Shown: positions 17,464 to 34,308 of the stretch, in pieces | Layout: every line of letters begins with the position of its first letter | How positions within the stretch are numbered: the stretch's first letter is position 1 | Source of the DNA: a virus | DNA: 36,128 nt | IMG/VR virus record: IMGVR_UViG_3300032053_018313 | Span: 1-36,128 of that record | Strand: one strand, 5' to 3' | Notes under the pieces: model-generated | What the model saw: the letters and a program-made list of their open reading frames with translations, nothing else | The model's database searches: none | Told to the model about the DNA's origin: nothing | Position numbers and translations under genes: made by a program

Positions 17464-18030
17464 ATGGAGACGGCAGGGGTTGCGGGAGATGTCGCGGATG
17501 CGGTTGTGGCTCGATCCGCTCTCAGACGGGACAGCCCCCAGATGACGGGGAGGTTCGAGGCGGAGTGCTGGGATGCCAAGGGCCACCTTCGGTGGCGGGG
17601 CTCCATGCGGAACATGATCGTGAACCAGGGCTTGCAACACACGCTCGACGCGGTATTCTCGGGAAGTTCCCAGGTGTCGACCTGGTACGTCGGTCTCTGC
17701 GCCACGAGCCCCACGGTAGCATCGAGCGACACCGCGGCGGTTCATGGCGGTTGGGCGGAGTTTACTTCCTACGGCGAGGAAACGAGACCGGAGTGGGTCG
17801 AGGTGCGCACGAATCAGAGTATGACGAACAGCGCATCGAAGGCGGCGTTCTCCATCAACGTCAACGCTTCGGTGATCGGTGGTCTCTTCCTCACGTCGGT
17901 CGCCGCGAAGAGCGCGGGAACCGGAACGCTCATGTCTGCCGTGGCCTTCTCGGGCGGGAACAAGAGCGCGGACAGTGGTGATACTTTGAGCGTCACCTAC
18001 ACGTTGTCCCTCGCCGATGACGGGGTGTGA
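17464..18030 (+). CDS. Widespread phage structural-type protein
   Basis: 188 residues. Residues 50-188 follow a pattern I know from many phage genomes: NMIVNQGLQHTLDAVFSGSS, then TWYVGLCATSPTVASSDTA, GWAEFTSY, NSASKAAFSINVNASVIGG, GTLMSAVAFSGGNKSADSGD. It is usually found near tail or fibre genes, and is probably a surface beta protein. ATG 17464 fits AGGGAG at 17451-17456 better than the GTG at 17458. Confidence 0.6.
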   Translation: METAGVAGDVADAVVARSALRRDSPQMTGRFEAECWDAKGHLRWRGSMRNMIVNQGLQHTLDAVFSGSSQVSTWYVGLCATSPTVASSDTAAVHGGWAEFTSYGEETRPEWVEVRTNQSMTNSASKAAFSINVNASVIGGLFLTSVAAKSAGTGTLMSAVAFSGGNKSADSGDTLSVTYTLSLADDGV

Positions 18031-18032
18031 GC

Positions 18033-18368
18033 ATGACCGTACTAGTAGGGGCGAAGGAAGGCAGTACGTTCGTTCTCACAGTGACATTCGAGGACGAGAA
18101 CCGGGTGGCATTCGTGCCGGTGACGTGCAAATGGACACTCGCGAATAAGGCGGGTGCTATCGTAAACGGCCGGCAGGATGTGGTGATCACGAGTCCTACG
18201 GCGTCGGTGACGATCGTGCTATCTGGGCTGGATCTGGCGGCAAATCAGGAAGGGAACTTGTCGCGGATTTTGATGGTGACGGGGACATATGACTCCGCAG
18301 CGGGAAGTAATCTGCCGTTCGCGGGGGAGGTGTCGTTCGCAATCGACCCGACGCCACTGGCGAGATGA
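18033..18368 (+). CDS. Ig-like beta-sandwich protein
   Basis: 111 residues of alternating beta strands (TFVLTVTFEDENRVAFVPVT, CKWTLANKAG, SVTIVLSGLDLA, SFAIDPTP), consistent with a single Ig-like or fibre-associated domain. Phages often display such domains on virions. ATG 18033 is used; a GTG six bases upstream overlaps the previous stop and is possible. The stop is directly followed by the tRNA gene. Confidence 0.55.
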   Translation: MTVLVGAKEGSTFVLTVTFEDENRVAFVPVTCKWTLANKAGAIVNGRQDVVITSPTASVTIVLSGLDLAANQEGNLSRILMVTGTYDSAAGSNLPFAGEVSFAIDPTPLAR

Positions 18369-18441
18369 CGCGGGATGGCGCAGATGGTAGCGCGCCGGGT
18401 TCATGTCCCGGAGGTCGCCGGTTCAATTCCGGCTCCCGCTA
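18369..18441 (+). tRNA. tRNA-Met (CAT), initiator-like
   Basis: A full cloverleaf folds by hand. The acceptor stem has pairs 2-7 intact, the D stem is GCGC/GCGC with loop AGATGGTA, and the anticodon stem is CCGGG/CCCGG with loop TTCATGT (anticodon CAT at 18402-18404). The variable loop is AGGTC, and the T stem is GCCGG/CCGGC with loop TTCAATT. Two marks of bacterial initiator tRNA are present: the first acceptor pair is a mismatch (C1 with U72), and three consecutive G:C pairs end the anticodon stem. The usual purine11:pyrimidine24 pair is absent (C11:G24). CCA is not encoded. It abuts the stop of the gene before it and lies in a late-gene operon. Confidence 0.92.
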
Positions 18442-18453
18442 TGGAGGTGCGAA

Positions 18454-18738
18454 GTGTCAAATGTAACTGATCCGTCCCCGGCGGTTCCCGGGGTGGTAGC
18501 AAACCCTGCGAAAGAGAACTGGACGCTGACCGTTCTCAAGGTCTCATGGCCAGTCATCGCGTTCATCCTCGTCGTCGTGACGGTGGTGATCTCGCTCGGG
18601 CTGCCGGACCGCATGTCGACGTGGATGTCGGCACTGCCGATCCTCGCGGGTATCGACGCGGCGATGGGTGCGGTCGCTTTCGGCGGGCCCGCCGTAAAAC
18701 GCATGCAGGAGGCGCGTCTTGGCAACGGCAACCCGTAG
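18454..18738 (+). CDS. Two-TM holin-like membrane protein
   Basis: 94 residues from a GTG start with GGAGGT at 18443-18448. There are two hydrophobic segments: WPVIAFILVVVTVVISLG (about residues 33-50) and MSALPILAGIDAAMGAVAFG (about 58-77), with a short charged tail. Size and topology fit a class II holin, and it heads a cluster of small membrane proteins. No holin family signature is certain. A longer in-frame start would begin inside the tRNA. Confidence 0.5.
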   Translation: MSNVTDPSPAVPGVVANPAKENWTLTVLKVSWPVIAFILVVVTVVISLGLPDRMSTWMSALPILAGIDAAMGAVAFGGPAVKRMQEARLGNGNP

Positions 18739-18940
18739 GAAATTGCGCCTGCTCCCCGCCTTCGCGATCGCGGGACTCGGCTTCGCCGGCTCATGTTTGG
18801 CAATCCTTATCGTCCCGCGGCGCGCGCTCGCGTGGGCGGAGGACATCCTGCGGATGTTCCGCGCGCTACGGACGCGATGGCGACTGACCAACGCGCGCGC
18901 GATACCGGCGGCTGGAGTGACACATGGCAGCGGCGGGTAG
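18719..18940 (+). CDS. Small single-TM protein
   Basis: 73 residues from a TTG start with AGGAGG at 18707-18712. A basic N-terminus (TRRKLRLL) precedes one membrane segment (AFAIAGLGFAGSCLAILIV), then an Arg-rich cytoplasmic or periplasmic tail. It overlaps its neighbours on both sides, in the membrane-protein cluster. An antiholin or lysis accessory role is possible but unsupported by motif. Confidence 0.5.
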   Translation: MATATRRKLRLLPAFAIAGLGFAGSCLAILIVPRRALAWAEDILRMFRALRTRWRLTNARAIPAAGVTHGSGG

Positions 18941-19319
18941 GGTGCTCGGCTGGCTCGGGTGGGTCCTGCTGGCGGCGGTACTCATCGTGGCCTACGCGGC
19001 GACGATGGGAGCCGGCGGCGGGATACTGGATCTGCTGGCCAGGCTGAAACCGAAGGGGGTGAAGGATGCGGGGGATGATGCGCGCGCCGCGGCTGCGGCT
19101 ACTCTGGCCGGTGCTGCTCCTGCTGATGTTCTCGCCGCTGCCAGTACGGCCAGCGGAAGTGACGTCACCGGAGTCGTCGCCGCCGTCAGCGACAGTGCCG
19201 TTGCAGACCTGTCTGGACGAGCTGATGAGGCTCGAACAGAAATCCATCGAGCAGGTGACGAGGCTAGAGAGCGACTTCGCCGAGCGTCTACGCCTGGCGG
19301 TAACGGTAGCGGCGGCTGA
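18924..19319 (+). CDS. Membrane-anchored protein, inner-spanin-like candidate
   Basis: 131 residues with one N-terminal membrane anchor (LGWLGWVLLAAVLIVAYAAT), then a long Ala-, Asp- and Arg-rich region that could be helical (RADEARTEIHRAGDEARERL). An N-terminal anchor followed by a periplasmic helix is the layout of Rz-type inner-membrane spanins. More than 250 bases of its 3-prime part also encode the next gene in another frame, as in Rz/Rz1 pairs. Confidence 0.45.
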   Translation: MAAAGRVLGWLGWVLLAAVLIVAYAATMGAGGGILDLLARLKPKGVKDAGDDARAAAAATLAGAAPADVLAAASTASGSDVTGVVAAVSDSAVADLSGRADEARTEIHRAGDEARERLRRASTPGGNGSGG

Positions 19320-19494
19320 GGCGGTCAAGCCTGTGCTCGTGGAGCTCGCGGGCGTGACGGCGGAGAGGGACGCCTACCGGCGAGTGGTGCTGCGCTGGCA
19401 GATCGCGGCGGTGGGTGTGGGGGTCGGCGCAGCCGCGCTCGGGTTTCTATTCGGGGTGCTACTGCACCTCAGATACCATGCGGGTGCACGCTGA
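19066..19494 (+). CDS. Signal peptide plus C-terminal TM protein, spanin-like
   Basis: 142 residues. It has an N-terminal signal-like segment (RLLWPVLLLLMFSPLPVRPA), then a coiled-coil-like periplasmic stretch (LDELMRLEQKSIEQVTRLES and on to residue 105), and a C-terminal membrane segment (AAVGVGVGAAALGFLFGVLL). This two-ended layout recalls unimolecular spanins, but no lipobox cysteine follows the signal segment. ATG 19066 or 19075 could start it. It begins inside the previous gene in another frame, and its end overlaps the convergent gene by 26 bases. Confidence 0.5.
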   Translation: MRGMMRAPRLRLLWPVLLLLMFSPLPVRPAEVTSPESSPPSATVPLQTCLDELMRLEQKSIEQVTRLESDFAERLRLAVTVAAAEAVKPVLVELAGVTAERDAYRRVVLRWQIAAVGVGVGAAALGFLFGVLLHLRYHAGAR

Positions 19495-19831: not shown

Positions 19832-19905
19832 CCTCCTGGCTTTCGCCGACCCCGGCTCTTGCCGAGGTTTCGGCCGGGTGCCATCCGGCCTCTTCGGGGC
19901 GATCA
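19832..19905 (-). repeat. Three-hairpin intergenic element, copy A
   Basis: Read leftward, this 74-base block starts at the TGA of the preceding gene and ends at AGGAGG before the next. It holds hairpin 1, GGCCGG/CCGGCC; GAAA; hairpin 2, CCTCGGC-aaga-GCCGGGG; and hairpin 3, GGC-GAAA-GCC with a GNRA loop. Copy B at 20111-20177 keeps hairpins 1 and 3 and the flanks but has a different hairpin 2 that still pairs. It is likely a structured leader or processing element acting on the gene downstream. Confidence 0.6.
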
Positions 19906-20103
19906 GCCTGCGCTCCTTTCTGTGATGGGGTAAACGTATCCTTTGAGTCGGGCTTCGGCCGCGGCGACATTAGCCATGGCGCGGGAGATCAACGGTTGGA
20001 AAAAATCCTCTCTATCCTCTTTTGTTGCCTTGCCTATTTGCCGCGCCGCCATGTGCAGCATCCGCGCCGCGTCCGCGAGGACCTTCGCGTCTTTGTCGTA
20101 CAT
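19903..20103 (-). CDS. Small helical protein
   Basis: 66 residues, starting MYDKDAKVLADAARMLHMAA, mainly helical and charged, ending GYVYPITERSAG. AGGAGAGA precedes the ATG, so the longer in-frame reading that runs through the hairpin element and the gene upstream is unlikely. It sits between the two copies of the hairpin element. Function unknown. Confidence 0.65.
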   Translation of the reverse strand: MYDKDAKVLADAARMLHMAARQIGKATKEDREDFFQPLISRAMANVAAAEARLKGYVYPITERSAG

Positions 20104-20110
20104 ATTCTCT

Positions 20111-20177
20111 CCTCCTGGCTTTCGCCGACGCCGCGGGGCGTTTCGGCCGGCGCCGCCCGGCCTCCTCAGGGCGATCA
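20111..20177 (-). repeat. Three-hairpin intergenic element, copy B
   Basis: Second copy of the element at 19832-19905, again running from a TGA to AGGAGG on the leftward strand. Hairpin 1 is GGCCGG-gcggcg-CCGGCC. Hairpin 2 is ACGCC-ccgc-GGCGT, and hairpin 3 is GGC-GAAA-GCC. The flanking blocks TGATCGCCC at the start and GTCGGCGAAAGCCAGGAGG at the end match copy A. Confidence 0.6.
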
Positions 20178-20465
20178 GTCCTCCTCGTGGTCGGTGGCGG
20201 CGTAGAAGGCGCGGAGATCCTGCTCGACGTACCCAGGAACCTGTGGCTTTGCCACAAAAGGGAGGACCGCCAGTTTCGCCGTGATCCGTGCTTGCGTGTC
20301 GGGATCGTATGATGCCAGCGTCCCGGGTCCAAGGAGCTCGCCGTGCCAAGCGATGAAGGCGGCAATCTCTGCGGCGGCGGCCTCGGGGGTCATCGCGCCA
20401 GATGCCACGTCGTCGAGTACCGACTCTGTCGTCCGCTGTGCCTCGAAGCGCTCGGTGGTTGTCAT
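20175..20465 (-). CDS. Small acidic protein of the leftward operon
   Basis: 96 residues starting MTTTERFEAQRTTESVLDDV. A helical N-terminal half with MTPEAAAAEIAAFIAWHGEL is followed by a Pro-containing segment and an acidic end (FYAATDHEED). No family recognised. The start at 20465 was chosen because GGAG lies nine bases upstream and a sigma-70-like promoter would place the transcript start near 20480. The in-frame ATG at 20480 would be leaderless. Confidence 0.6.
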   Translation of the reverse strand: MTTTERFEAQRTTESVLDDVASGAMTPEAAAAEIAAFIAWHGELLGPGTLASYDPDTQARITAKLAVLPFVAKPQVPGYVEQDLRAFYAATDHEED

Positions 20466-20480
20466 GTGCTTTGTCTCCAT

Positions 20481-20520
20481 ACCTATACAATAACCCGACG
20501 TCCGGTGATCGTCAATAGGT
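20481..20520 (-). promoter_or_regulatory. Leftward sigma-70-like promoter flanked by inverted repeat
   Basis: On the - strand the -35 box is TTGACG (20510-20515) and the -10 box TATTGT (20487-20492), with a 17-base spacer. The hexamers ACCTAT (20481-20486) and ATAGGT (20515-20520) form an inverted repeat at either edge, a possible operator. A perfect hairpin CGATTTC-tggg-GAAATCG lies just upstream at 20528-20545. The promoter would drive the three genes down to 19469. Confidence 0.6.
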
Positions 20521-20604
20521 AGCGACACGATTTCTGGGGAAATCGGCGTGGCGGCCGGCTTCGCGGCCCTCGCGGTGTGGCTCGCGGCGCGGTAACGGTA
20601 GGGG

Positions 20605-21027
20605 TTAGGGTTTTGTGAACACCTTCGAGTAATCGAGCGTTTTCGTCTGGCCATACGAGTATTCGAGCTTGACCTGCTTCACGACGATTCTGCGTGCACC
20701 TCCGGTGAGAGTCGCGAGCGTGGTGCCAGCATAGCAGATGCTTCCTGGTTCCAGCGGGCCATTCATGTCCCAGATGCTTGGGAAGTCGGCAAGATGATCG
20801 AAGTTGCCGCCGGCACACTCGGCGGTGTAGTAGACGGAGATCCCATCGAGCGCAAGGGTCCCCGTGTTTTTCACGGTGAACTTGATGTTCTCCCAGATGG
20901 TGTTCGACCAGTCGAAGGATACCGCGGTGATCTCGACGGCCGCGGTCGGAGTCGGCGCCGGCGTGAACCAACCCTGCGAACATGCCGACATGGCCAGCAC
21001 GGCCAGGACAATTGCCAACCGTTTCAC
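20605..21027 (-). CDS. Exported lipoprotein with beta-sandwich domain
   Basis: 140 residues from a GTG start with GGAGG six bases upstream. The N-terminus, read as MKRLAIVLAVLAMSACSQ, is a lipoprotein signal peptide with the lipidated Cys at residue 16 and a Pro/Thr linker after it. The mature part is one beta-rich domain (AVEITAVSFDWSNTIWENIK, FTVKNTGTLALDGISVYYTA), resembling FxLYD-type or other periplasmic binding-like beta-sandwiches. On the leftward strand and apart from late genes, it may alter the host envelope, for example to exclude other phages. That role is inference. Confidence 0.75.
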   Translation of the reverse strand: MKRLAIVLAVLAMSACSQGWFTPAPTPTAAVEITAVSFDWSNTIWENIKFTVKNTGTLALDGISVYYTAECAGGNFDHLADFPSIWDMNGPLEPGSICYAGTTLATLTGGARRIVVKQVKLEYSYGQTKTLDYSKVFTKP

Positions 21028-21069
21028 AAGCACCTCCGCCCCAATCCTACGCCACGCCGGCCGTCGGCG

Positions 21070-21116
21070 CAAGGGCGCTCAGGGAAATCGCAGCGGAAAG
21101 TAGGCGCGCGCCCTTG
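21070..21116. repeat. Inverted repeat upstream of lipoprotein gene
   Basis: CAAGGGCGC at 21070-21078 and GCGCCCTTG at 21108-21116 are exact complements, 29 bases apart, in the 103-base gap between the lipoprotein start and the gene upstream. It could be an operator or a stem in the leader. No good promoter is visible in this gap. Confidence 0.4.
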
Positions 21117-21130
21117 ACGACGCCGACTGC

Positions 21131-21484
21131 TCAATGCCCGATCATGCTGCCGCGGAGGGGGTGCACCCCGACATCCTCGGCGCACTGTGCCCAGTTGGCC
21201 ATGAGGGCACGCTCGGCCTCCACCTCTGGATCTGGCGGCGCTCCAATATGCCCCTCCAGGGAGCGCATCCGCGCCTCAAGGATCTCCAGGCGCCGTTCCG
21301 TCAACGTCGATAGCCCGCGGGCCGAGCGCCACTCTTCGCGGAGGTGGGTGTTGTCGGCGCGGATCTCCTTCTGGATGTCCGCAAAGCGCAGGGTCATGGT
21401 ATGCAGCAGGCCGGCGAACTGATCGATCTGGATTTGGCTCGGGTGGAATGGGCGCTCCCTGCGGGCGGCGGCTTTTGTGGCCAT
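21131..21484 (-). CDS. Basic/coiled-coil small protein
   Basis: 117 residues starting MATKAAARRERPFHPSQIQI. A basic N-terminus is followed by a long helical region (IDQFAGLLHTMTLRFADIQK, then LTERRLEILEARMRSLEGHI) that could form a coiled coil. No family recognised. AGGAGG lies six bases before the ATG. A G9 tract at 21550-21558 and operator-like repeats at 21593-21646 lie upstream. Confidence 0.6.
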   Translation of the reverse strand: MATKAAARRERPFHPSQIQIDQFAGLLHTMTLRFADIQKEIRADNTHLREEWRSARGLSTLTERRLEILEARMRSLEGHIGAPPDPEVEAERALMANWAQCAEDVGVHPLRGSMIGH

Positions 21485-21663
21485 GTGGGGCCTCCTACTC
21501 AATGCGTCGGCGGTAGGGCGGGATCGCGGGGTGTGGAAAACGGCAGGACGGGGGGGGGTGCACGGAACGACGGGGGGCCCTACTTCGGGCTGGAGTAGAC
21601 GGAATGTCTAACAACTAATGTTATCGGAAGCAACACCTGTCTACTCACGTCGACCAGCTTCGG
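21485..21663. other. Intergenic region with nested inverted repeats
   Basis: No gene is supported here. GAGTAGAC (21593-21600) and GTCTACTC (21639-21646) form an exact 8-base inverted repeat 38 bases apart. Inside it, TAACA-actaa-TGTTA (21609-21623) repeats the half-sites of the likely RHH operator at 21941-21951. The middle is A+T-rich. On the leftward strand a TTGCTT box lies nearby but its -10 is poor. A G9 tract (21550-21558) is also present. Confidence 0.45.
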
Positions 21664-21855
21664 TCAGTTTTCTCGTCCCTCCTCCTCCGGCGGATAGTCA
21701 GTCTCGACGGTTGGTAATGCGCGCCGGACGCACTCCAGGATCACCTGGTTCTTCTTGCGGAACCGTTGGTGACGAGCCAGCCGCACGACCCGGTTGTACA
21801 TGGGGTCGGGCAAGATAATGGAAAGCACTCGCCTTCCGACCTCGGCCTCGGCCAT
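21664..21855 (-). CDS. Ribbon-helix-helix regulator, leftward
   Basis: 63 residues. The segment LSIILPDPMYNRVVRLARHQ, then a helix ending VILECVRRALP, has the strand-helix-helix order of Arc/CopG-type DNA-binding proteins, which act as dimers or higher forms on short inverted repeats. AGGAGG lies six bases before the ATG, and TATGAT (21876-21881 on the - strand) is a good -10. It is homologous to the divergent gene at 21969, so the pair probably arose by duplication. Confidence 0.7.
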   Translation of the reverse strand: MAEAEVGRRVLSIILPDPMYNRVVRLARHQRFRKKNQVILECVRRALPTVETDYPPEEEGREN

Positions 21856-22139: not shown

Positions 22140-23125
22140 GCGATCCTACCCGGCAGCTGGAAGTGTTACGCAAGGCAACGGCTGTGCTCACGGTAGAGAG
22201 CATGAAGCTCGTTCCGGCCGTCCTAAAGCAAGCGCACGCCGCGGCTCTATATCTATCCGCGAAGGGAGCTGACGAGGAAGCGCGGAAGGTAGAAGCCTGG
22301 CGGATCGGGCTCCAGTGGGAAGCGGGCCGGTGGTTGCGGAAGGCGCCGAAGCAGACAGGGCAACTGGCTGGTAAGCAGGAAGATGGTGCCGTTCGGCGGT
22401 CGCACGACGCGACCACCGAAACCTACGCCGCGCAGGGGATCGACAAGCACGACGCATCCCGCTGGCAACGAATCGCTTTGCTCCCGGACAAGAGTCTGCG
22501 GGATTACCAGGCGAAGGCCGAGAAACCCACAACGGCTGGGGCGCTCCGAATCGTGAAACAGCAAGAACGCGATCAAGCCCGAGCGAAAAATGCCGAGCAG
22601 GTGAAAACCGCGGCCCCGCTTCCCGATGGTCCCTTCGCCACCATCGTGGTGGACCCCCCGTGGGACTGGGGTGATGAAGGGGACGTGAGTCAATTCGGCC
22701 GCGGAGATCCCAAGTACAAAACGATGACGCACGATGAACTGCTCGCCTTCCCGGTCGGCGACCGAGCCGCTCCGAACGCCCATCTATACCTGTGGATTAC
22801 GAACAGGAGCCTGCCCAAAGGGTTCGGCCTGATCGCTAGGTGGGGTTTTCGATTCGTGACGATACTGACGTGGTGCAAGCCTTCCATCGGCATGGGCAAC
22901 TACTTCCGGGGCTCCACAGAACATCTTCTGTTCTGCGTGAAGGGATCACTTGCCCTTATGCGGTTGGACGTTGGCACGTGGTTCAGTTGGCCGCGTGGAC
23001 AGGATCACAGTGCGAAGCCAGAAGAAGCCTATGACCTGATCGAGACGTGTTCCCCTGGCCCGTACTTGGACGCCTTCGCGCGCCGCGCGCGCCGTGGGTG
23101 GATGTGTTGGGGGGCTGAGGCATGA
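22136..23125 (+). CDS. MT-A70-family adenine DNA methyltransferase
   Basis: 329 residues. The catalytic motif DPPW is at residues 173-176 (TIVVDPPWDWG). The C-terminal domain shows the MT-A70 pattern: HLYLWITNRSLPKGFGLI, FVTILTWCKPSIGMGNYFRG, STEHLLFCVKG. It transfers methyl from AdoMet to N6 of adenine. The first 160 residues form a helical domain with a ParB-like/KorB-like feel (GIDKHDASRWQRIALLPDKS), common in phage versions, probably for DNA recognition. It may protect phage DNA from host restriction. The start is a GTG overlapping the RHH gene. Confidence 0.88.
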   Translation: MSDPTRQLEVLRKATAVLTVESMKLVPAVLKQAHAAALYLSAKGADEEARKVEAWRIGLQWEAGRWLRKAPKQTGQLAGKQEDGAVRRSHDATTETYAAQGIDKHDASRWQRIALLPDKSLRDYQAKAEKPTTAGALRIVKQQERDQARAKNAEQVKTAAPLPDGPFATIVVDPPWDWGDEGDVSQFGRGDPKYKTMTHDELLAFPVGDRAAPNAHLYLWITNRSLPKGFGLIARWGFRFVTILTWCKPSIGMGNYFRGSTEHLLFCVKGSLALMRLDVGTWFSWPRGQDHSAKPEEAYDLIETCSPGPYLDAFARRARRGWMCWGAEA

Positions 23126-25244: not shown

Positions 25245-25330
25245 GAATCACGCAGGTTACGTATCGCCGCGTCTACAACCTCGGCAACGCTTCAGTGGGG
25301 CTCGCGCAGCGGAAGGCAGGTTCGGCATGA
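25241..25330 (+). CDS. Short peptide, truncated NLGN-type protein
   Basis: 29 residues, beginning MRITQVTYRRVYNLGN. Many phages carry a longer protein that begins with a very similar stretch (IT-x-VTY-x-R-x-[FY]NLGNYE...). Here the reading ends about 13 residues after NLGN. The ATG overlaps the previous stop and the stop overlaps the SbcDC start, both as ATGA. It may be a real micro-ORF or a remnant kept for coupling. Confidence 0.5.
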   Translation: MRITQVTYRRVYNLGNASVGLAQRKAGSA

Positions 25331-28300
25331 GCCTGCAAATCCTTCACGCAAGCGACATCCACTACGCGCCCGAGCACAAGGCCGAGGCGCTCGCTTCCCT
25401 GCGGGTGCTTCGCGACACGGCACGCGAGCGGGAGGTCGATCTCGTCGCCATCGCGGGCGACCTCTTCGACCGCGGGTTGCAGGCGACGGACCGGGACGGT
25501 TACGCCGAACTCGTGGCCATCATCCAGGAGATCCTGGGGATCGCGCCCATCGTCGCCGTCAGAGGCACGCCGAGTCACGACCCGCCGGGAGCCTACGACG
25601 TGCTGACCAGGCTACAGGCCAAGCACGAGTTCACGGCGATCGAGCCCGGAACGGCTTACTACCTGCACGCCTCGGGCGACGTCGTCCCGTTTGACTGTGG
25701 CGACGAGAACCGCCTGCTCATCCTGGGGGTGCCGGAGCCAGGGAAGGCGTGGCTACTCGCGAATGGAGACGGCCTGGGCAGCGCAGAGGCCAGCCAGGCC
25801 GTCGTGGATGCGATGAAGGCGCTCCTGCTTGGACTTGGTGGTCTCCGCAGGAAACACCCGGAACTCGCAACCGTCCTGTTGTACCACGGGGCGATCCGCG
25901 GCGCAACCATGGGCGCCGGCCAGCTCGTGAGCGGCACGGAGCTCGCGATCGGCGCCGAGGACCTGGCGCTCGCGGGGGCGGACTATTACCCTCTCGGGCA
26001 CATTCACAAAGCGCAGCAGATCGGAGAGATGCCGGCGTACTACGCCGGGAGCGCGTACCCCGTCGACTGGGGCGAGCTGGATCAGAAGGCGTGCAACCTC
26101 GTCGAGCTGCTCGAGCCCGGCCACCCCCCCGTCATCGAGCGCATCCCGTTCCCGCACCCGCCACGGTGCAAGATCCAGAGCGATGGCGTCAGTCTGGACG
26201 CGCTCCTCGACGAGCGGCCCATGGACGGCAAGCAGACATGGCTCGTGGTCCGCAACACCACAGAGAACCTCGCGGACCTGAGCGAGGAGGCGATGCTGGG
26301 GTGGCTCGTCGACCACGGCGCGCTCCCCGGCTCCCGCGTGACCTTCGACCCGATCCCCGTGGAGACCGTACGCGCCGCGGAGATCACGGACGCGCAGCAT
26401 CTGCGGGACAAGGCGGGCGTGTGGGCGGAGGCGTCCGGGCTTGTGCCTCCCACCGATCCCGTGCTGGCAAAAGCCGACACACTGGAGGACGAGGCAATAG
26501 CCAGCGGAGCGGTAGGCGAGGGCCTGCACATCCGCGTGCGCTCGCTGACCCTGCGCGGGGCCATCGGGATCTGGCGCGGCCTCGGCGTGGACGAAGTGTC
26601 GCTCGACCTCGACGCCTACGAGCCCGGCCTGGTAGCCCTCGTGGGCCCGAACGGCGCCGGCAAGAGCACGCTCATCGAGAACCTGCACCCGTACACGCAG
26701 ATGCTGACCAGGGGCGGCGGGCTCGCGCAGCACTTCCGGCTCAAGGACAGCCGGCGGGAGCTGAAGTTCATCGACGCGCGCACCGGCGCCGAGTACCGCG
26801 CGCTCATTCTCATCGACCCGACCCTCGCGACCCCGAAGACCGAGTGCTACCTGTACAAGGACGGAGAGCCGCTCTGCACCGGGCGCGTCAAGGAGTACGA
26901 GGAGCTGGTCGGCCGCCTGTTCGGCTCGCTCGATCTGTTCGTCAAATCCGCTTTTGTCGCGCAGAAGCCGCCAAAGGGGCACCCGGACCTCGCCGACGCC
27001 ACGCCGGCGGAGCGCAAGAGTCTCTTCCGCGAGCTCGGCGGCCTGGACTACCTCCAGGGGTACGCGGAGAGAGCGAAGGAGCGAGCCGACACCATCGCGC
27101 AGCTCATGGGCGAGGACAGGGCGCGTGCCAGCGTGATCCGGCCGCTACTCGAACAAGAACCGGATAGGATCGTGGAACTCGCGCGCACAGACACGACGCT
27201 CGAAGCAGCGAAGGCGCAAGCTGAAACCGTGAAAGCCGCGGGCGTCGCGCAGCGCAAGCAGGTCGAGGCGCTGGCCGTCCGCGTAACCGATCAGCGCGAG
27301 ATCACGCAACGGCGCGGCTCGCTTCTCGAGGAGCACGCCCGGATGAAGCGAGAGAACGACGCGAGTGAACAGAAATCGAAAACATTCACCGCTGCTCTCG
27401 CGGGCCGGCCGGCCGCGGTGGAGATCGTGCAGAAGGCCGACGACCTGGACAAAGCCAAGGAGGACCTGAGTGAACGAAAAGCGAAAATGTTCACCGAGCG
27501 GGATGCGATCAGCACAAAGCACGCCGCTGCGCTCGCGGCTCATCTCCATGATCGCGACCAGGTGCAGGCGGAAATCCGGCGCATGGAGAAGCAGGCGGCG
27601 GACTTGCGCGCCCGAAAAGCAGGCTTTGTGGCCACGGTCGACACTCTCGGGCTCCAGGCGGAGCAGCCGATAGACGACACCTGCCCGACCTGCGGGCAGA
27701 CACTGCCGGAGGGCAAGCGCGCGGAGCTGGAGGCCGCGCGGGACGAACTGCGCGGGAAACTCGCACAGACGCAGGAGGCGGTGCTCGCTATCGACAACGC
27801 GCTCATCGAGGCCGGGCGAATCCAGTCCGCTGCCGAGACGAGTCTCTCTGCGATGATCGAGCCGCGGGCCCCGACCCTGCCCACCTTCGAGCAGCAGCCG
27901 GCGCTCGACGCAGTGCTCGCGGCGCTGGCGAAGCTCGACGTTCCGCGCGCGCGGGAGACCATCCGGCTGGCAGACGCAGCGGAGGCGCAGATCGCGGCAG
28001 CACGGACCCGGGGCGAGCAGATCGCCGCACGGCTCACCGAGATCGACACCGAGCGGACGGCACTCATGGCCCGCGTCGACGAGACCGTAGGGCCAGAGCA
28101 CGCCAAGGCGCAAGCAACGCTCGACGAGCTGCGCGAGCAGTACACGACGGCAACGGCGGAAGTGGCGCGGCTGGAAGCAGAGGTGAAGGCGCTCAGGGCT
28201 ACCCTCGCGGACCTGGCGCAGAAGCGCGCCACTCTCGCAGAGATCGAGGCGCGAATTGCAGCCGCGGACTGCGATTTGGCCGACTGGCGCTACCTGGAGC

Positions 28301-28809
28301 GGGCCTGCGGGCGCGACGGCATCCAGGCCCTCGAGCTCGACGCGATGGGGCCGAGCATCGCCGAGACCGCGAACGGCTTGCTCGATGCGGCCTACGGCTC
28401 GCGCTTCCGCGTGGAGATCCGCACGACCAGGATTGCCGGAAGGGGCAGCAAGACCAAGCAAGTCGAGGACTTCGAACTCATCGTCCACGACACCGAGCGC
28501 GGGACAGAGCAGCCCCTCGACACCCTGAGCGGCGGGGAGACCGTGTGGATACGCAAGGCCCTCTACGACGCCTTCGGCATCATCCGCGCCCGGACCACGG
28601 GCACCAAGTTTTTGACGGTCTGCCTCGACGAGGCCGATGGAGCCCTCGACCCTGAGGCCAGGCGGCGCTACGTCGCGATGCTCAGGGCCGCCCACGAGGC
28701 GGCTGGCAGGCGGCACACGATCTGCATCACCCACAGCGAGGATGCGCAGCAGGCCATCGGGCAGAGGATCGACATGCGCGAGTTCGCGGGATCGGCGGTG
28801 ACGGCGTGA
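25327..28809 (+). CDS. Single-chain SbcD-SbcC (Mre11-Rad50) nuclease-ATPase fusion
   Basis: 1160 residues with no internal stop. The N-terminal 380 residues are an SbcD/Mre11 metallophosphoesterase: D10-x-H12, GD45LFDRG, H84-D85, H187 (LLYHG) and GH225IH227. The canonical GNHD is replaced by GTPSHD. Residues about 400-1160 are SbcC/Rad50: Walker A GPNGAGKST (440-448), long coiled coils around a zinc hook CPTC (786-789), signature LSGGE (1067-1071), Walker B LTVCLDEADGALD (1096-1108) and H-loop THS. It processes DNA ends and hairpins. Usually these are two separate genes. ATG 25327 is preferred over the upstream in-frame reading that lies inside other genes. Confidence 0.88.
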   Translation: MSLQILHASDIHYAPEHKAEALASLRVLRDTAREREVDLVAIAGDLFDRGLQATDRDGYAELVAIIQEILGIAPIVAVRGTPSHDPPGAYDVLTRLQAKHEFTAIEPGTAYYLHASGDVVPFDCGDENRLLILGVPEPGKAWLLANGDGLGSAEASQAVVDAMKALLLGLGGLRRKHPELATVLLYHGAIRGATMGAGQLVSGTELAIGAEDLALAGADYYPLGHIHKAQQIGEMPAYYAGSAYPVDWGELDQKACNLVELLEPGHPPVIERIPFPHPPRCKIQSDGVSLDALLDERPMDGKQTWLVVRNTTENLADLSEEAMLGWLVDHGALPGSRVTFDPIPVETVRAAEITDAQHLRDKAGVWAEASGLVPPTDPVLAKADTLEDEAIASGAVGEGLHIRVRSLTLRGAIGIWRGLGVDEVSLDLDAYEPGLVALVGPNGAGKSTLIENLHPYTQMLTRGGGLAQHFRLKDSRRELKFIDARTGAEYRALILIDPTLATPKTECYLYKDGEPLCTGRVKEYEELVGRLFGSLDLFVKSAFVAQKPPKGHPDLADATPAERKSLFRELGGLDYLQGYAERAKERADTIAQLMGEDRARASVIRPLLEQEPDRIVELARTDTTLEAAKAQAETVKAAGVAQRKQVEALAVRVTDQREITQRRGSLLEEHARMKRENDASEQKSKTFTAALAGRPAAVEIVQKADDLDKAKEDLSERKAKMFTERDAISTKHAAALAAHLHDRDQVQAEIRRMEKQAADLRARKAGFVATVDTLGLQAEQPIDDTCPTCGQTLPEGKRAELEAARDELRGKLAQTQEAVLAIDNALIEAGRIQSAAETSLSAMIEPRAPTLPTFEQQPALDAVLAALAKLDVPRARETIRLADAAEAQIAAARTRGEQIAARLTEIDTERTALMARVDETVGPEHAKAQATLDELREQYTTATAEVARLEAEVKALRATLADLAQKRATLAEIEARIAAADCDLADWRYLERACGRDGIQALELDAMGPSIAETANGLLDAAYGSRFRVEIRTTRIAGRGSKTKQVEDFELIVHDTERGTEQPLDTLSGGETVWIRKALYDAFGIIRARTTGTKFLTVCLDEADGALDPEARRRYVAMLRAAHEAAGRRHTICITHSEDAQQAIGQRIDMREFAGSAVTA

Positions 28810-32963: not shown

Positions 32964-33439
32964 CCGAGCAGGAACTGGCAGCGGTGATGGAGCGGCGGGA
33001 TGTACGCAAGAGGACATGGGACTGGGCAGTTAGTGCCCCTCCGATAAAGATGGCAGCGGCGGCGAACCAAGCCGAAGCCGACCGCTCTGCCCTCCTCGAC
33101 CACATCGACGCCCAGGCAAAGGCGTGCGCCGAGTGCCGTGAGTCGTGGGAAACACAGACTGAAAGGTCTGACGCCCACGAGGAAGCCCAGGCGAGGGAGA
33201 TCAGGTTCTGCGGCGGTGCCATCGCACAATACAAGATCACTGAGGCGGACCTATGCACGCGGGGCATCGCGCTGCGGGACGAGAATGCCCGGCAGCGGCG
33301 GGCGATCTACAGGCTCGCGGCGTGGATACACGAGGACAGGGCATATTTGCGGGCAGATGACATAGGACTGTACACAGACAGTTTGGATGCCCATGCTCGC
33401 ATCCGCGCCCGGCTCGCGGCGATGGAGGCGCGGGGATGA
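32960..33439 (+). CDS. Unrecognised helical protein
   Basis: 159 residues from ATG 32960 (ATGA overlap). The sequence is mostly helical with a C-x2-C (AKACAECRESWE) near residue 56 and a charged C-terminus (ARLAAMEARG). GGAGGGGG lies just upstream. A longer in-frame start lies inside the previous gene. Function unknown; position in a run of accessory genes. Confidence 0.6.
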   Translation: MTEQELAAVMERRDVRKRTWDWAVSAPPIKMAAAANQAEADRSALLDHIDAQAKACAECRESWETQTERSDAHEEAQAREIRFCGGAIAQYKITEADLCTRGIALRDENARQRRAIYRLAAWIHEDRAYLRADDIGLYTDSLDAHARIRARLAAMEARG

Positions 33440-34308
33440 CGCGCGACGAACAACTCGCCTTGGCTCGTGACGAGCGCCAGAAGGTGGAAGCCGGTAACGC
33501 TCGGCCGATACTCCGCGTGATCTCTCTCGGTGCTGGAGTGCAGTCTACGACGCTGGCTCTGTTGGCAAAGGATGGAATCGTGGAGATGCCTGACTGCGCG
33601 ATCTTCGCGGATACTCAGGCGGAACCAAAAGCGGTCTACCGGCACTTGGATTGGCTCGAGAGCGTGTTGCCATTCCCGGTGCATCGGGTGACGGCGGGTA
33701 GTTTGACCAAGGAAATCCTGGGGGCGATGGAAGGTACGAATCGGATGGATGCACGCCCGCCGTTTCACGTTGAGACCGGCGGGATGTTGCACCGCCAGTG
33801 CACGCAAGATTTCAAGATCGCACCGATCCAGAAGAAGATCAGGGAACTTATCGGGGTCGGCAAAGGAGAACGCGCGCCGCGTGATCCAGTGGTCGAGCAG
33901 TGGATCGGAATATCGCTCGATGAAGTACGCCGCATGAAGGTGAGTCGCATGCCATACATCGTCCATCGGTGGCCACTGATCGAATTGAAGATGACCCGTG
34001 GGGATTGCAAGGCGTGGATCGAAAAGCACGGCTACCCGATACCGGCAAAGAGTGCATGCACCTTCTGCCCCTACCACGACCAAGCGGTGTGGCGAGCGCT
34101 CAAGCAGAATCCAGAGGATTGGGCGGAAGCCGTGAAGGTGGACCTCGCTATTCGTCCAGGCATCACGAATCGGGGATGGACGGAGCCCCTGCGGTGGTTT
34201 GTACATCGAGATAGGGTGCCGCTTTCAGAGGTGGACCTATCGACGGAGGACGAACGCGGACAACTCGATCTGTTCACCAACGAGTGCGAGGGGATGTGCG
34301 GTGTATGA
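33436..34308 (+). CDS. PAPS-reductase-like PP-loop protein
   Basis: 290 residues. The PP-loop is SLGAGVQST (residues 30-38) in RVISLGAGVQSTTLALLA, the usual phage form in which SGG is replaced by SLGAG. Later motifs are IFADTQAEPKAVYRHLDWLE, QCTQDFKIAPI (C122), and ACTFCPYHD (C208, C211). These Cys suggest an Fe-S or zinc site. The family resembles PAPS reductases and related ATP-pyrophosphatases. In phages its substrate is unknown, and nucleic-acid modification is one suggestion. ATGA overlap with the gene upstream. Confidence 0.85.
   Translation: MTRDEQLALARDERQKVEAGNARPILRVISLGAGVQSTTLALLAKDGIVEMPDCAIFADTQAEPKAVYRHLDWLESVLPFPVHRVTAGSLTKEILGAMEGTNRMDARPPFHVETGGMLHRQCTQDFKIAPIQKKIRELIGVGKGERAPRDPVVEQWIGISLDEVRRMKVSRMPYIVHRWPLIELKMTRGDCKAWIEKHGYPIPAKSACTFCPYHDQAVWRALKQNPEDWAEAVKVDLAIRPGITNRGWTEPLRWFVHRDRVPLSEVDLSTEDERGQLDLFTNECEGMCGV

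Follow-up and report, generated by a model that had tools for sequence, protein, structure and literature searches.

An initiator-type tRNA gene between tail and lysis genes

The window, by which we mean the whole 36,128-base stretch of viral DNA analysed here (IMG/VR record IMGVR_UViG_3300032053_018313), yields a single tRNA call with ARAGORN, a tRNA-Met(cat) at 18369-18441 on the plus strand. The Rfam tRNA model RF00005 spans these positions end to end (62.2 bits, E 2.4e-11) with 1:72 as the sole broken pair, and the minimum-energy fold is a full cloverleaf (-36.2 kcal/mol). An earlier note on this DNA had described the gene as the only tRNA, which is true of the 36,128-base record; a search of that record for a terminal repeat found none, and it may be incomplete. 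The features at the locus are as follows.

18027-18368, plus strand: upstream ORF, starting at ATG 18033 or GTG 18027, its stop codon abutting tRNA base 1 (ORF calls); no family match
18369-18441, plus strand: initiator-type tRNA(CAU) gene of 73 nt without an encoded CCA (ARAGORN, RF00005, fold, profile comparison)
18369, plus strand: C1, facing U72 (18440) unpaired, an acceptor mismatch of initiator type (Rfam alignment, sequence parse)
18370-18371, plus strand: G2 and C3, pairing with C71 (18439) and G70 (18438), formylation determinants that are retained (sequence; role per PMC7949028)
18378-18393, plus strand: D arm GCGC-AGAUGGUA-GCGC, in which C11 (18379):G24 (18392) replaces A11:U24 and the D loop ends GG-N-A, as in initiators (sequence parse, profile comparison)
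18395-18411, plus strand: anticodon arm CCGGG-UUCAUGU-CCCGG, including the three initiator G:C pairs G29:C41, G30:C40 and G31:C39 (sequence parse)
18400-18406, plus strand: anticodon loop UUCAUGU, with U32 (18400), anticodon CAU (18402-18404), G37 (18405) and U38 (18406) (sequence parse, host comparison)
18443-18447, plus strand: Shine-Dalgarno sequence GGAGG of the next gene, two bases past the tRNA (sequence, start score)
18454-18738, plus strand: downstream ORF with a GTG start, hydrophobic (ORF calls, translation); no family match

The acceptor stem reads CGCGGGA/UCCCGCU, the variable loop AGGUC and the T arm GCCGG-UUCAAUU-CCGGC, and the discriminator position is A73. The Rfam alignment and the sequence parse bear out the C1/U72 mismatch and the three G:C pairs that the earlier note had reported, and the parse also contains the C11:G24 pair that it had seen in place of the usual one. 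That note overlooked the missing CCA and the anticodon loop, which is UUCAUGU rather than the host form CUCAUAA. Because of G37 the anticodon loop contains an ATG in frame with the downstream gene, and ORF lists begin that gene within the tRNA (18403-18738, plus strand); the likelier start is the GTG at 18454, which lies behind the strong Shine-Dalgarno sequence, 12 bases after tRNA base 73. Judged by eye from its translation, the product of this ORF is a possible holin.

Terminase, capsid, tail assembly, major tail, tape measure and amidase genes lie 5' of the tRNA on the same strand, and together with the ORF spacing they agree with the placement of the tRNA within the late operon that had been suggested before. 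The ORFs downstream of the tRNA gave no family match; by eye, their translations are membrane proteins that resemble a lysis cassette. Two of the ORFs beyond the tRNA, at 18924-19319 and 19066-19494 (plus strand), overlap in different frames; both products are short and begin with a hydrophobic stretch, in the manner of nested spanin-like lysis genes, and neither has a family match. Elsewhere in the window, small ORFs without family matches form a cluster on the minus strand (19903-21855), the rest of the genome being read on the plus strand, where there are also an MT-A70 type DNA methyltransferase gene (22184-23125), a phosphoadenosine phosphosulfate reductase-like gene (33436-34308) and a 1160-aa ORF (25327-28809) with an SbcD-like calcineurin-like phosphoesterase start and an SbcC/Rad50-like ATPase end, in which SbcD and SbcC appear to be fused into one protein.

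Close relatives of this phage were sparse. Megablast with 20 kb of the window returned no phage match and tblastn with the major tail protein no match. One contig (L019) is 64-81% identical across most head genes and stops short of the tRNA position. In six further contigs, all of them fragments, whose version of the upstream gene is 43-46% identical, there is no tRNA.

The window tRNA scores as a divergent initiator

The initiator tRNA is the tRNA that starts every protein. In bacteria its major marks are a 1:72 mismatch and three G:C pairs in the anticodon stem, and formylation is aided by G2:C71, C3:G70 and A11:U24, the last of which assists and stands outside the two major features (PMC7949028). 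The window tRNA has the mismatch (C1:U72), the three pairs (29:41, 30:40 and 31:39), G2:C71 and C3:G70; at 11:24 it has C11:G24 instead. Compared with bacterial initiator tRNA-fMet as a whole, it shares these pairs, the CAU anticodon, the D loop and the AGGUC variable loop, and differs in C11:G24 for A11:U24 and in UUCAUGU for CUCAUAA. An elongator tRNA-Met or a lysidine tRNA-Ile(CAU) has 1:72 paired and lacks the three G:C pairs, and the window tRNA shows neither property.

We trained position profiles on 92 host initiators, 37 host elongator tRNA-Met and 16 host Ile2 tRNAs. Over all positions the log-odds favour the initiator by 18.8 bits over elongator-Met and 55.2 bits over Ile2; without 1:72, 29-31:39-41 and the loop they still do so by 15.3 and 49.6 bits, and with 11:24 also left out by 30.3 and 64.4 bits. 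A single base separates GG from A21 in the D loop of the window tRNA, as it does in 91 of the 92 host initiators and in two of the 37 elongators. The earlier note had held that a firm profile placement with elongator tRNA-Met or tRNA-Ile(CAT) would speak against its reading; the profiles give no such placement, and support the initiator type with or without the diagnostic positions. Against elongators over all positions, however, the score of 18.8 is below that of every host initiator in leave-one-out scoring (lowest 30.2), so that, judged from its sequence, the window tRNA is a divergent initiator, yet an initiator. That it might be an elongator tRNA-Met or a lysidine tRNA-Ile merely resembling an initiator is scarcely credible: elongators carry C11:G24, and Bacillota elongators have a similar loop, but the unpaired C1:U72, the three G:C pairs, the initiator-type D loop and both profile scores oppose it.

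Bacillota elongator tRNA-Met (host loci such as L319, L304 and L385) has the loop UUCAUAC and G1:U72, and is only a few substitutions away from the viral initiators with altered loops described below. We considered descent from this elongator, given its UUCAUAC loop and C11:G24, and rejected it for the window and for most viral cases, in which the remaining sequence is initiator-like by profile; the exceptions are 10-15 of the 85 altered-loop viral tRNAs, which lie closer to elongators in score.

Loop and 11:24 changes recur in viral initiators

Viral contigs and bacterial genomes were scanned with one pattern, in which the G:C pairs, the anticodon and the variable loop were fixed and positions 32, 37 and 38 were free. 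The viral and host sets are samples, consisting of the matches listed rather than all matches. Because the pattern demands the three G:C pairs and an AGGUC variable loop (five bases in the parsing), viral initiators lacking either are uncounted, and any host DNA inside viral contigs would reduce the contrast between viral and host sets, not increase it.

Among the matches listed, all 92 distinct host initiators have the loop CUCAUAA and none has C11:G24, with two of the 92 carrying other pairs than A11:U24. By contrast, 29 of the 89 distinct viral initiators listed have altered loops, about two thirds keeping CUCAUAA, and 16 of the 89 have C11:G24. The C11:G24 of the window is therefore not a lone oddity. 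With a 1:72 mismatch required, altered loops occur in 20/63 viral versus 0/90 host initiators (p 2.4e-9) and C11:G24 in 10/63 versus 0/90 (p 9e-5), again among the matches listed; collapsing these matches at 90% identity leaves altered loops in 19/42 viral versus 0/19 host initiators (p 2e-4), the numbers at 80% being too small. Within the viral matches listed, position 37 is A in 82 of 89, and 24 of 25 changes at position 38 are to pyrimidines. A search for the altered-loop pattern in 396 actinobacterial and 398 Pseudomonadota genomes produced no tRNA match; two matches in the actinobacterial genomes were discarded as lying within coding sequence and not being tRNAs.

We scored divergence at the 32 positions that are at least 97% conserved in hosts and were left free by the pattern. 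The host-invariant positions most often changed in viral initiators are 11, 32 and 38 (27% each), 24 (22%) and 4:69 (20%); position 37 is changed in 10%, and 2:71, 3:70, 8, 10, 18 and most of the T arm in 0-5%. The divergence is concentrated at 11:24, 32 and 38 and is near nil at the formylation pairs and the core, and is therefore not even decay. The window tRNA differs from the host form at 11:24, 32, 37 and 38. In a set of 130 distinct viral initiators chosen by the mismatch and the three G:C pairs, G2:C71 is present in 127 and C3:G70 in 119, and the 1:72 mismatch takes nine forms, a sequence pattern that is the expected residue of what would be selection for initiation. The combinations at 32 and 38 are mostly pyrimidine pairs in this set, which is partly selected by the pattern (U-C in 50/130, U-U in 22/130). 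Altered-loop viral tRNAs have 3.0 changes at other host-invariant positions versus 1.3 in normal-loop ones.

Like changes occur in unrelated viruses. A tree of 235 initiators has very little resolution, with 42 loop changes on the best tree and at least four forced by well-supported branches. The large genes adjoining altered-loop tRNAs match several separate terminase families, as well as portal, capsid and endolysin families, and since these neighbours fall in several separate families the carriers are not one phage group. Among named isolates, initiator-type tRNAs occur in Pseudomonas phage PaMx74 (loop UUCAUAC), Bordetella phage PHB09 (UUCAUAC, C11:G24, U1:U72) and Stenotrophomonas phage QDWS359 (UUCAUAA), and in Bordetella phage PHB04 with C11:G24 and the loop CUCAUAA. 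On a viral contig of 607,744 bases (L087) there are two initiator-type tRNAs, whose loops are CUCAUAA, the host form, and UUCAUAU. Among the viral loci of alignment A1, one has a gene with a match to the RNA ligase RtcB close to its altered-loop initiator tRNA; the RtcB operon of E. coli responds to initiator tRNA cut by VapC (PMC5175333).

Discussion

We propose that the window encodes a working phage initiator tRNA of the late operon whose anticodon loop evades nucleases that cut the initiator, an explanation that, taken whole, we consider evenly balanced between right and wrong. The tRNA would be transcribed within the late (tail-lysis) operon and released by RNase P cleavage at the stop codon that ends the upstream gene and by a host 3' nuclease acting after A73. 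Host enzymes would then add CCA, charge the tRNA with methionine and formylate it, and the fMet-tRNA would start phage proteins late in infection. Use in initiation is the simplest reading, because every recognisable determinant except A11:U24 is kept, and from the sequence we infer that processing, charging, formylation and use in initiation very probably take place. With U32, G37 and U38 in place of C32, A37 and A38, the phage tRNA would be a poor substrate for nucleases that cut the host initiator in the loop, and initiation could continue once the host initiator pool is cut.

Nucleases of this kind are known. In Shigella and Salmonella, VapC cleaves initiator tRNA at the bond joining A38 to C39 (PMC4105405, PMC5175333), and VapC toxins that cut tRNA-fMet are present in several other bacteria (PMC8522696, PMC12321070). 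Anticodon-loop changes at cleavage sites are the proposed mark of nuclease-evading phage tRNAs (PMC10264068), and the window tRNA has such a change, A38 to U38, at the A38/C39 site. The VapC literature that we found does not state a need for A38 in cleavage. Other observations count against evasion. Position 11:24 is far from the anticodon, so anticodon nucleases do not explain its change; the UUCAUAC loop is normal in Bacillota elongator tRNA-Met, so it is functional in translation and does not have to be a sign of evasion; the additional changes elsewhere in altered-loop tRNAs fit general relaxation; and two thirds of the viral initiators among the matches listed retain CUCAUAA. Nuclease evasion is in our judgement the likeliest reason for the altered loop while falling somewhat short of probable, with dosage and relaxed constraint close behind.

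That second explanation, for which we see roughly one chance in three, is that the tRNA only raises the capacity for initiation late in infection, and that drift, being tolerated, has altered the loop and 11:24. Initiator abundance matters for the fidelity and rate of initiation (PMC7949028), drift would be tolerable since a phage tRNA need not last or match host accuracy, and retention of the host loop in most of the viral matches listed implies that carrying an initiator is useful without a loop change; the excess of changes at other conserved positions in altered-loop tRNAs points the same way. However, the divergence is strongly uneven, with 32, 38 and 11:24 standing out and many other host-invariant sites untouched, and the changes at position 38 are almost all to pyrimidines.

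The other roles that we considered are far less probable. The tRNA fills the entire intergenic space, directly abutting the upstream stop and leaving 12 bases before the next start, as might be expected if it served mainly as an RNase P/RNase Z cut site parting the tail mRNA from the lysis mRNA. We consider this improbable: any tRNA-like fold would suffice for such punctuation, which would not preserve the unpaired 1:72, the three G:C pairs and G2:C71/C3:G70 across viruses, and most related viral tRNAs are less tightly packed, with median gaps of more than 100 bases.

The earlier note had suggested that the tRNA could favour GTG and TTG starts of phage genes; the analysis does not support this part of its interpretation, while it does support the initiator-type identity. 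Many starts in the window are non-ATG (18/36 with a crude start caller, 16/49 with another), and positions 37 and 38 adjoin the anticodon. Nonetheless, the non-ATG share in the window is that predicted from its GC content and agrees with that of phage and host loci with comparable GC, and altered- and normal-loop viral loci are alike in non-ATG starts after GC adjustment (coefficient -0.01, permutation p 0.95; with so crude a start caller, a small effect could escape notice). Together with the predominance of A at position 37 noted above, this makes a start-codon bias very improbable.

Least probable among these roles is tRNA-dependent lysogeny, in which integration would disrupt the initiator gene of the host and the phage tRNA would make up for the loss; it requires an integrase and an attP that shares a short core with the tRNA gene of the host. 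In actinobacteriophages, other phage tRNAs have been shown to replace a host tRNA function in this way (Guerrero-Bustamante and Hatfull 2024, PMC10865867). In those published cases the tRNA is part of the integration region, whereas the window tRNA sits between tail and lysis genes, and no initiator is among them; neither a tyrosine nor a serine integrase was found among the scanned proteins of the window, a possibly incomplete record.

Phage tRNA-fMet genes are already known. Stenotrophomonas phage QDWS359 and Sinorhizobium phiLM21-like prophages (PMC12429752) have, like the window, a single or nearly single initiator-type tRNA by structural or terminase genes; these are known as annotations only, and the literature that we found does not discuss their loop or 11:24 changes. 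As far as the literature could be searched, the shared loop and 11:24 signature appears to be undescribed. The closest parallel to the proposed evasion is provided by the nuclease-evading phage tRNAs of van den Berg et al. 2023 (PMC10264068), which are likewise phage copies of a nuclease target with the loop changed at the cut site. Enterobacterial phages generally avoid tRNA-fMet in the cases studied there, whereas altered-loop initiator-type tRNAs are common in the viral contigs analysed here.

The reason that phages carry tRNAs is a long-open question, and for an initiator tRNA the usual appeal to codon supply fails, because the initiator reads start codons only. Viral initiators that keep the features needed for initiation and change a few host-invariant bases offer a small, clean test system, in which a single tRNA and one or two of its positions are involved, enzymes that cut initiator tRNA are known, and phages with a similar loop (PaMx74, PHB09) are in culture. 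If evasion is true, the idea of nuclease evasion reaches translation initiation, and the published view that phages avoid tRNA-fMet is corrected. More tentatively, and with the chances rather against it, many unrelated viral lineages may carry cleavage-resistant initiator tRNAs with a common signature of a pyrimidine at 38, U32 and often C11:G24. If so, cutting or capturing the host initiator tRNA would be a widespread anti-phage defence, and the changed positions would mark what those defences recognise.
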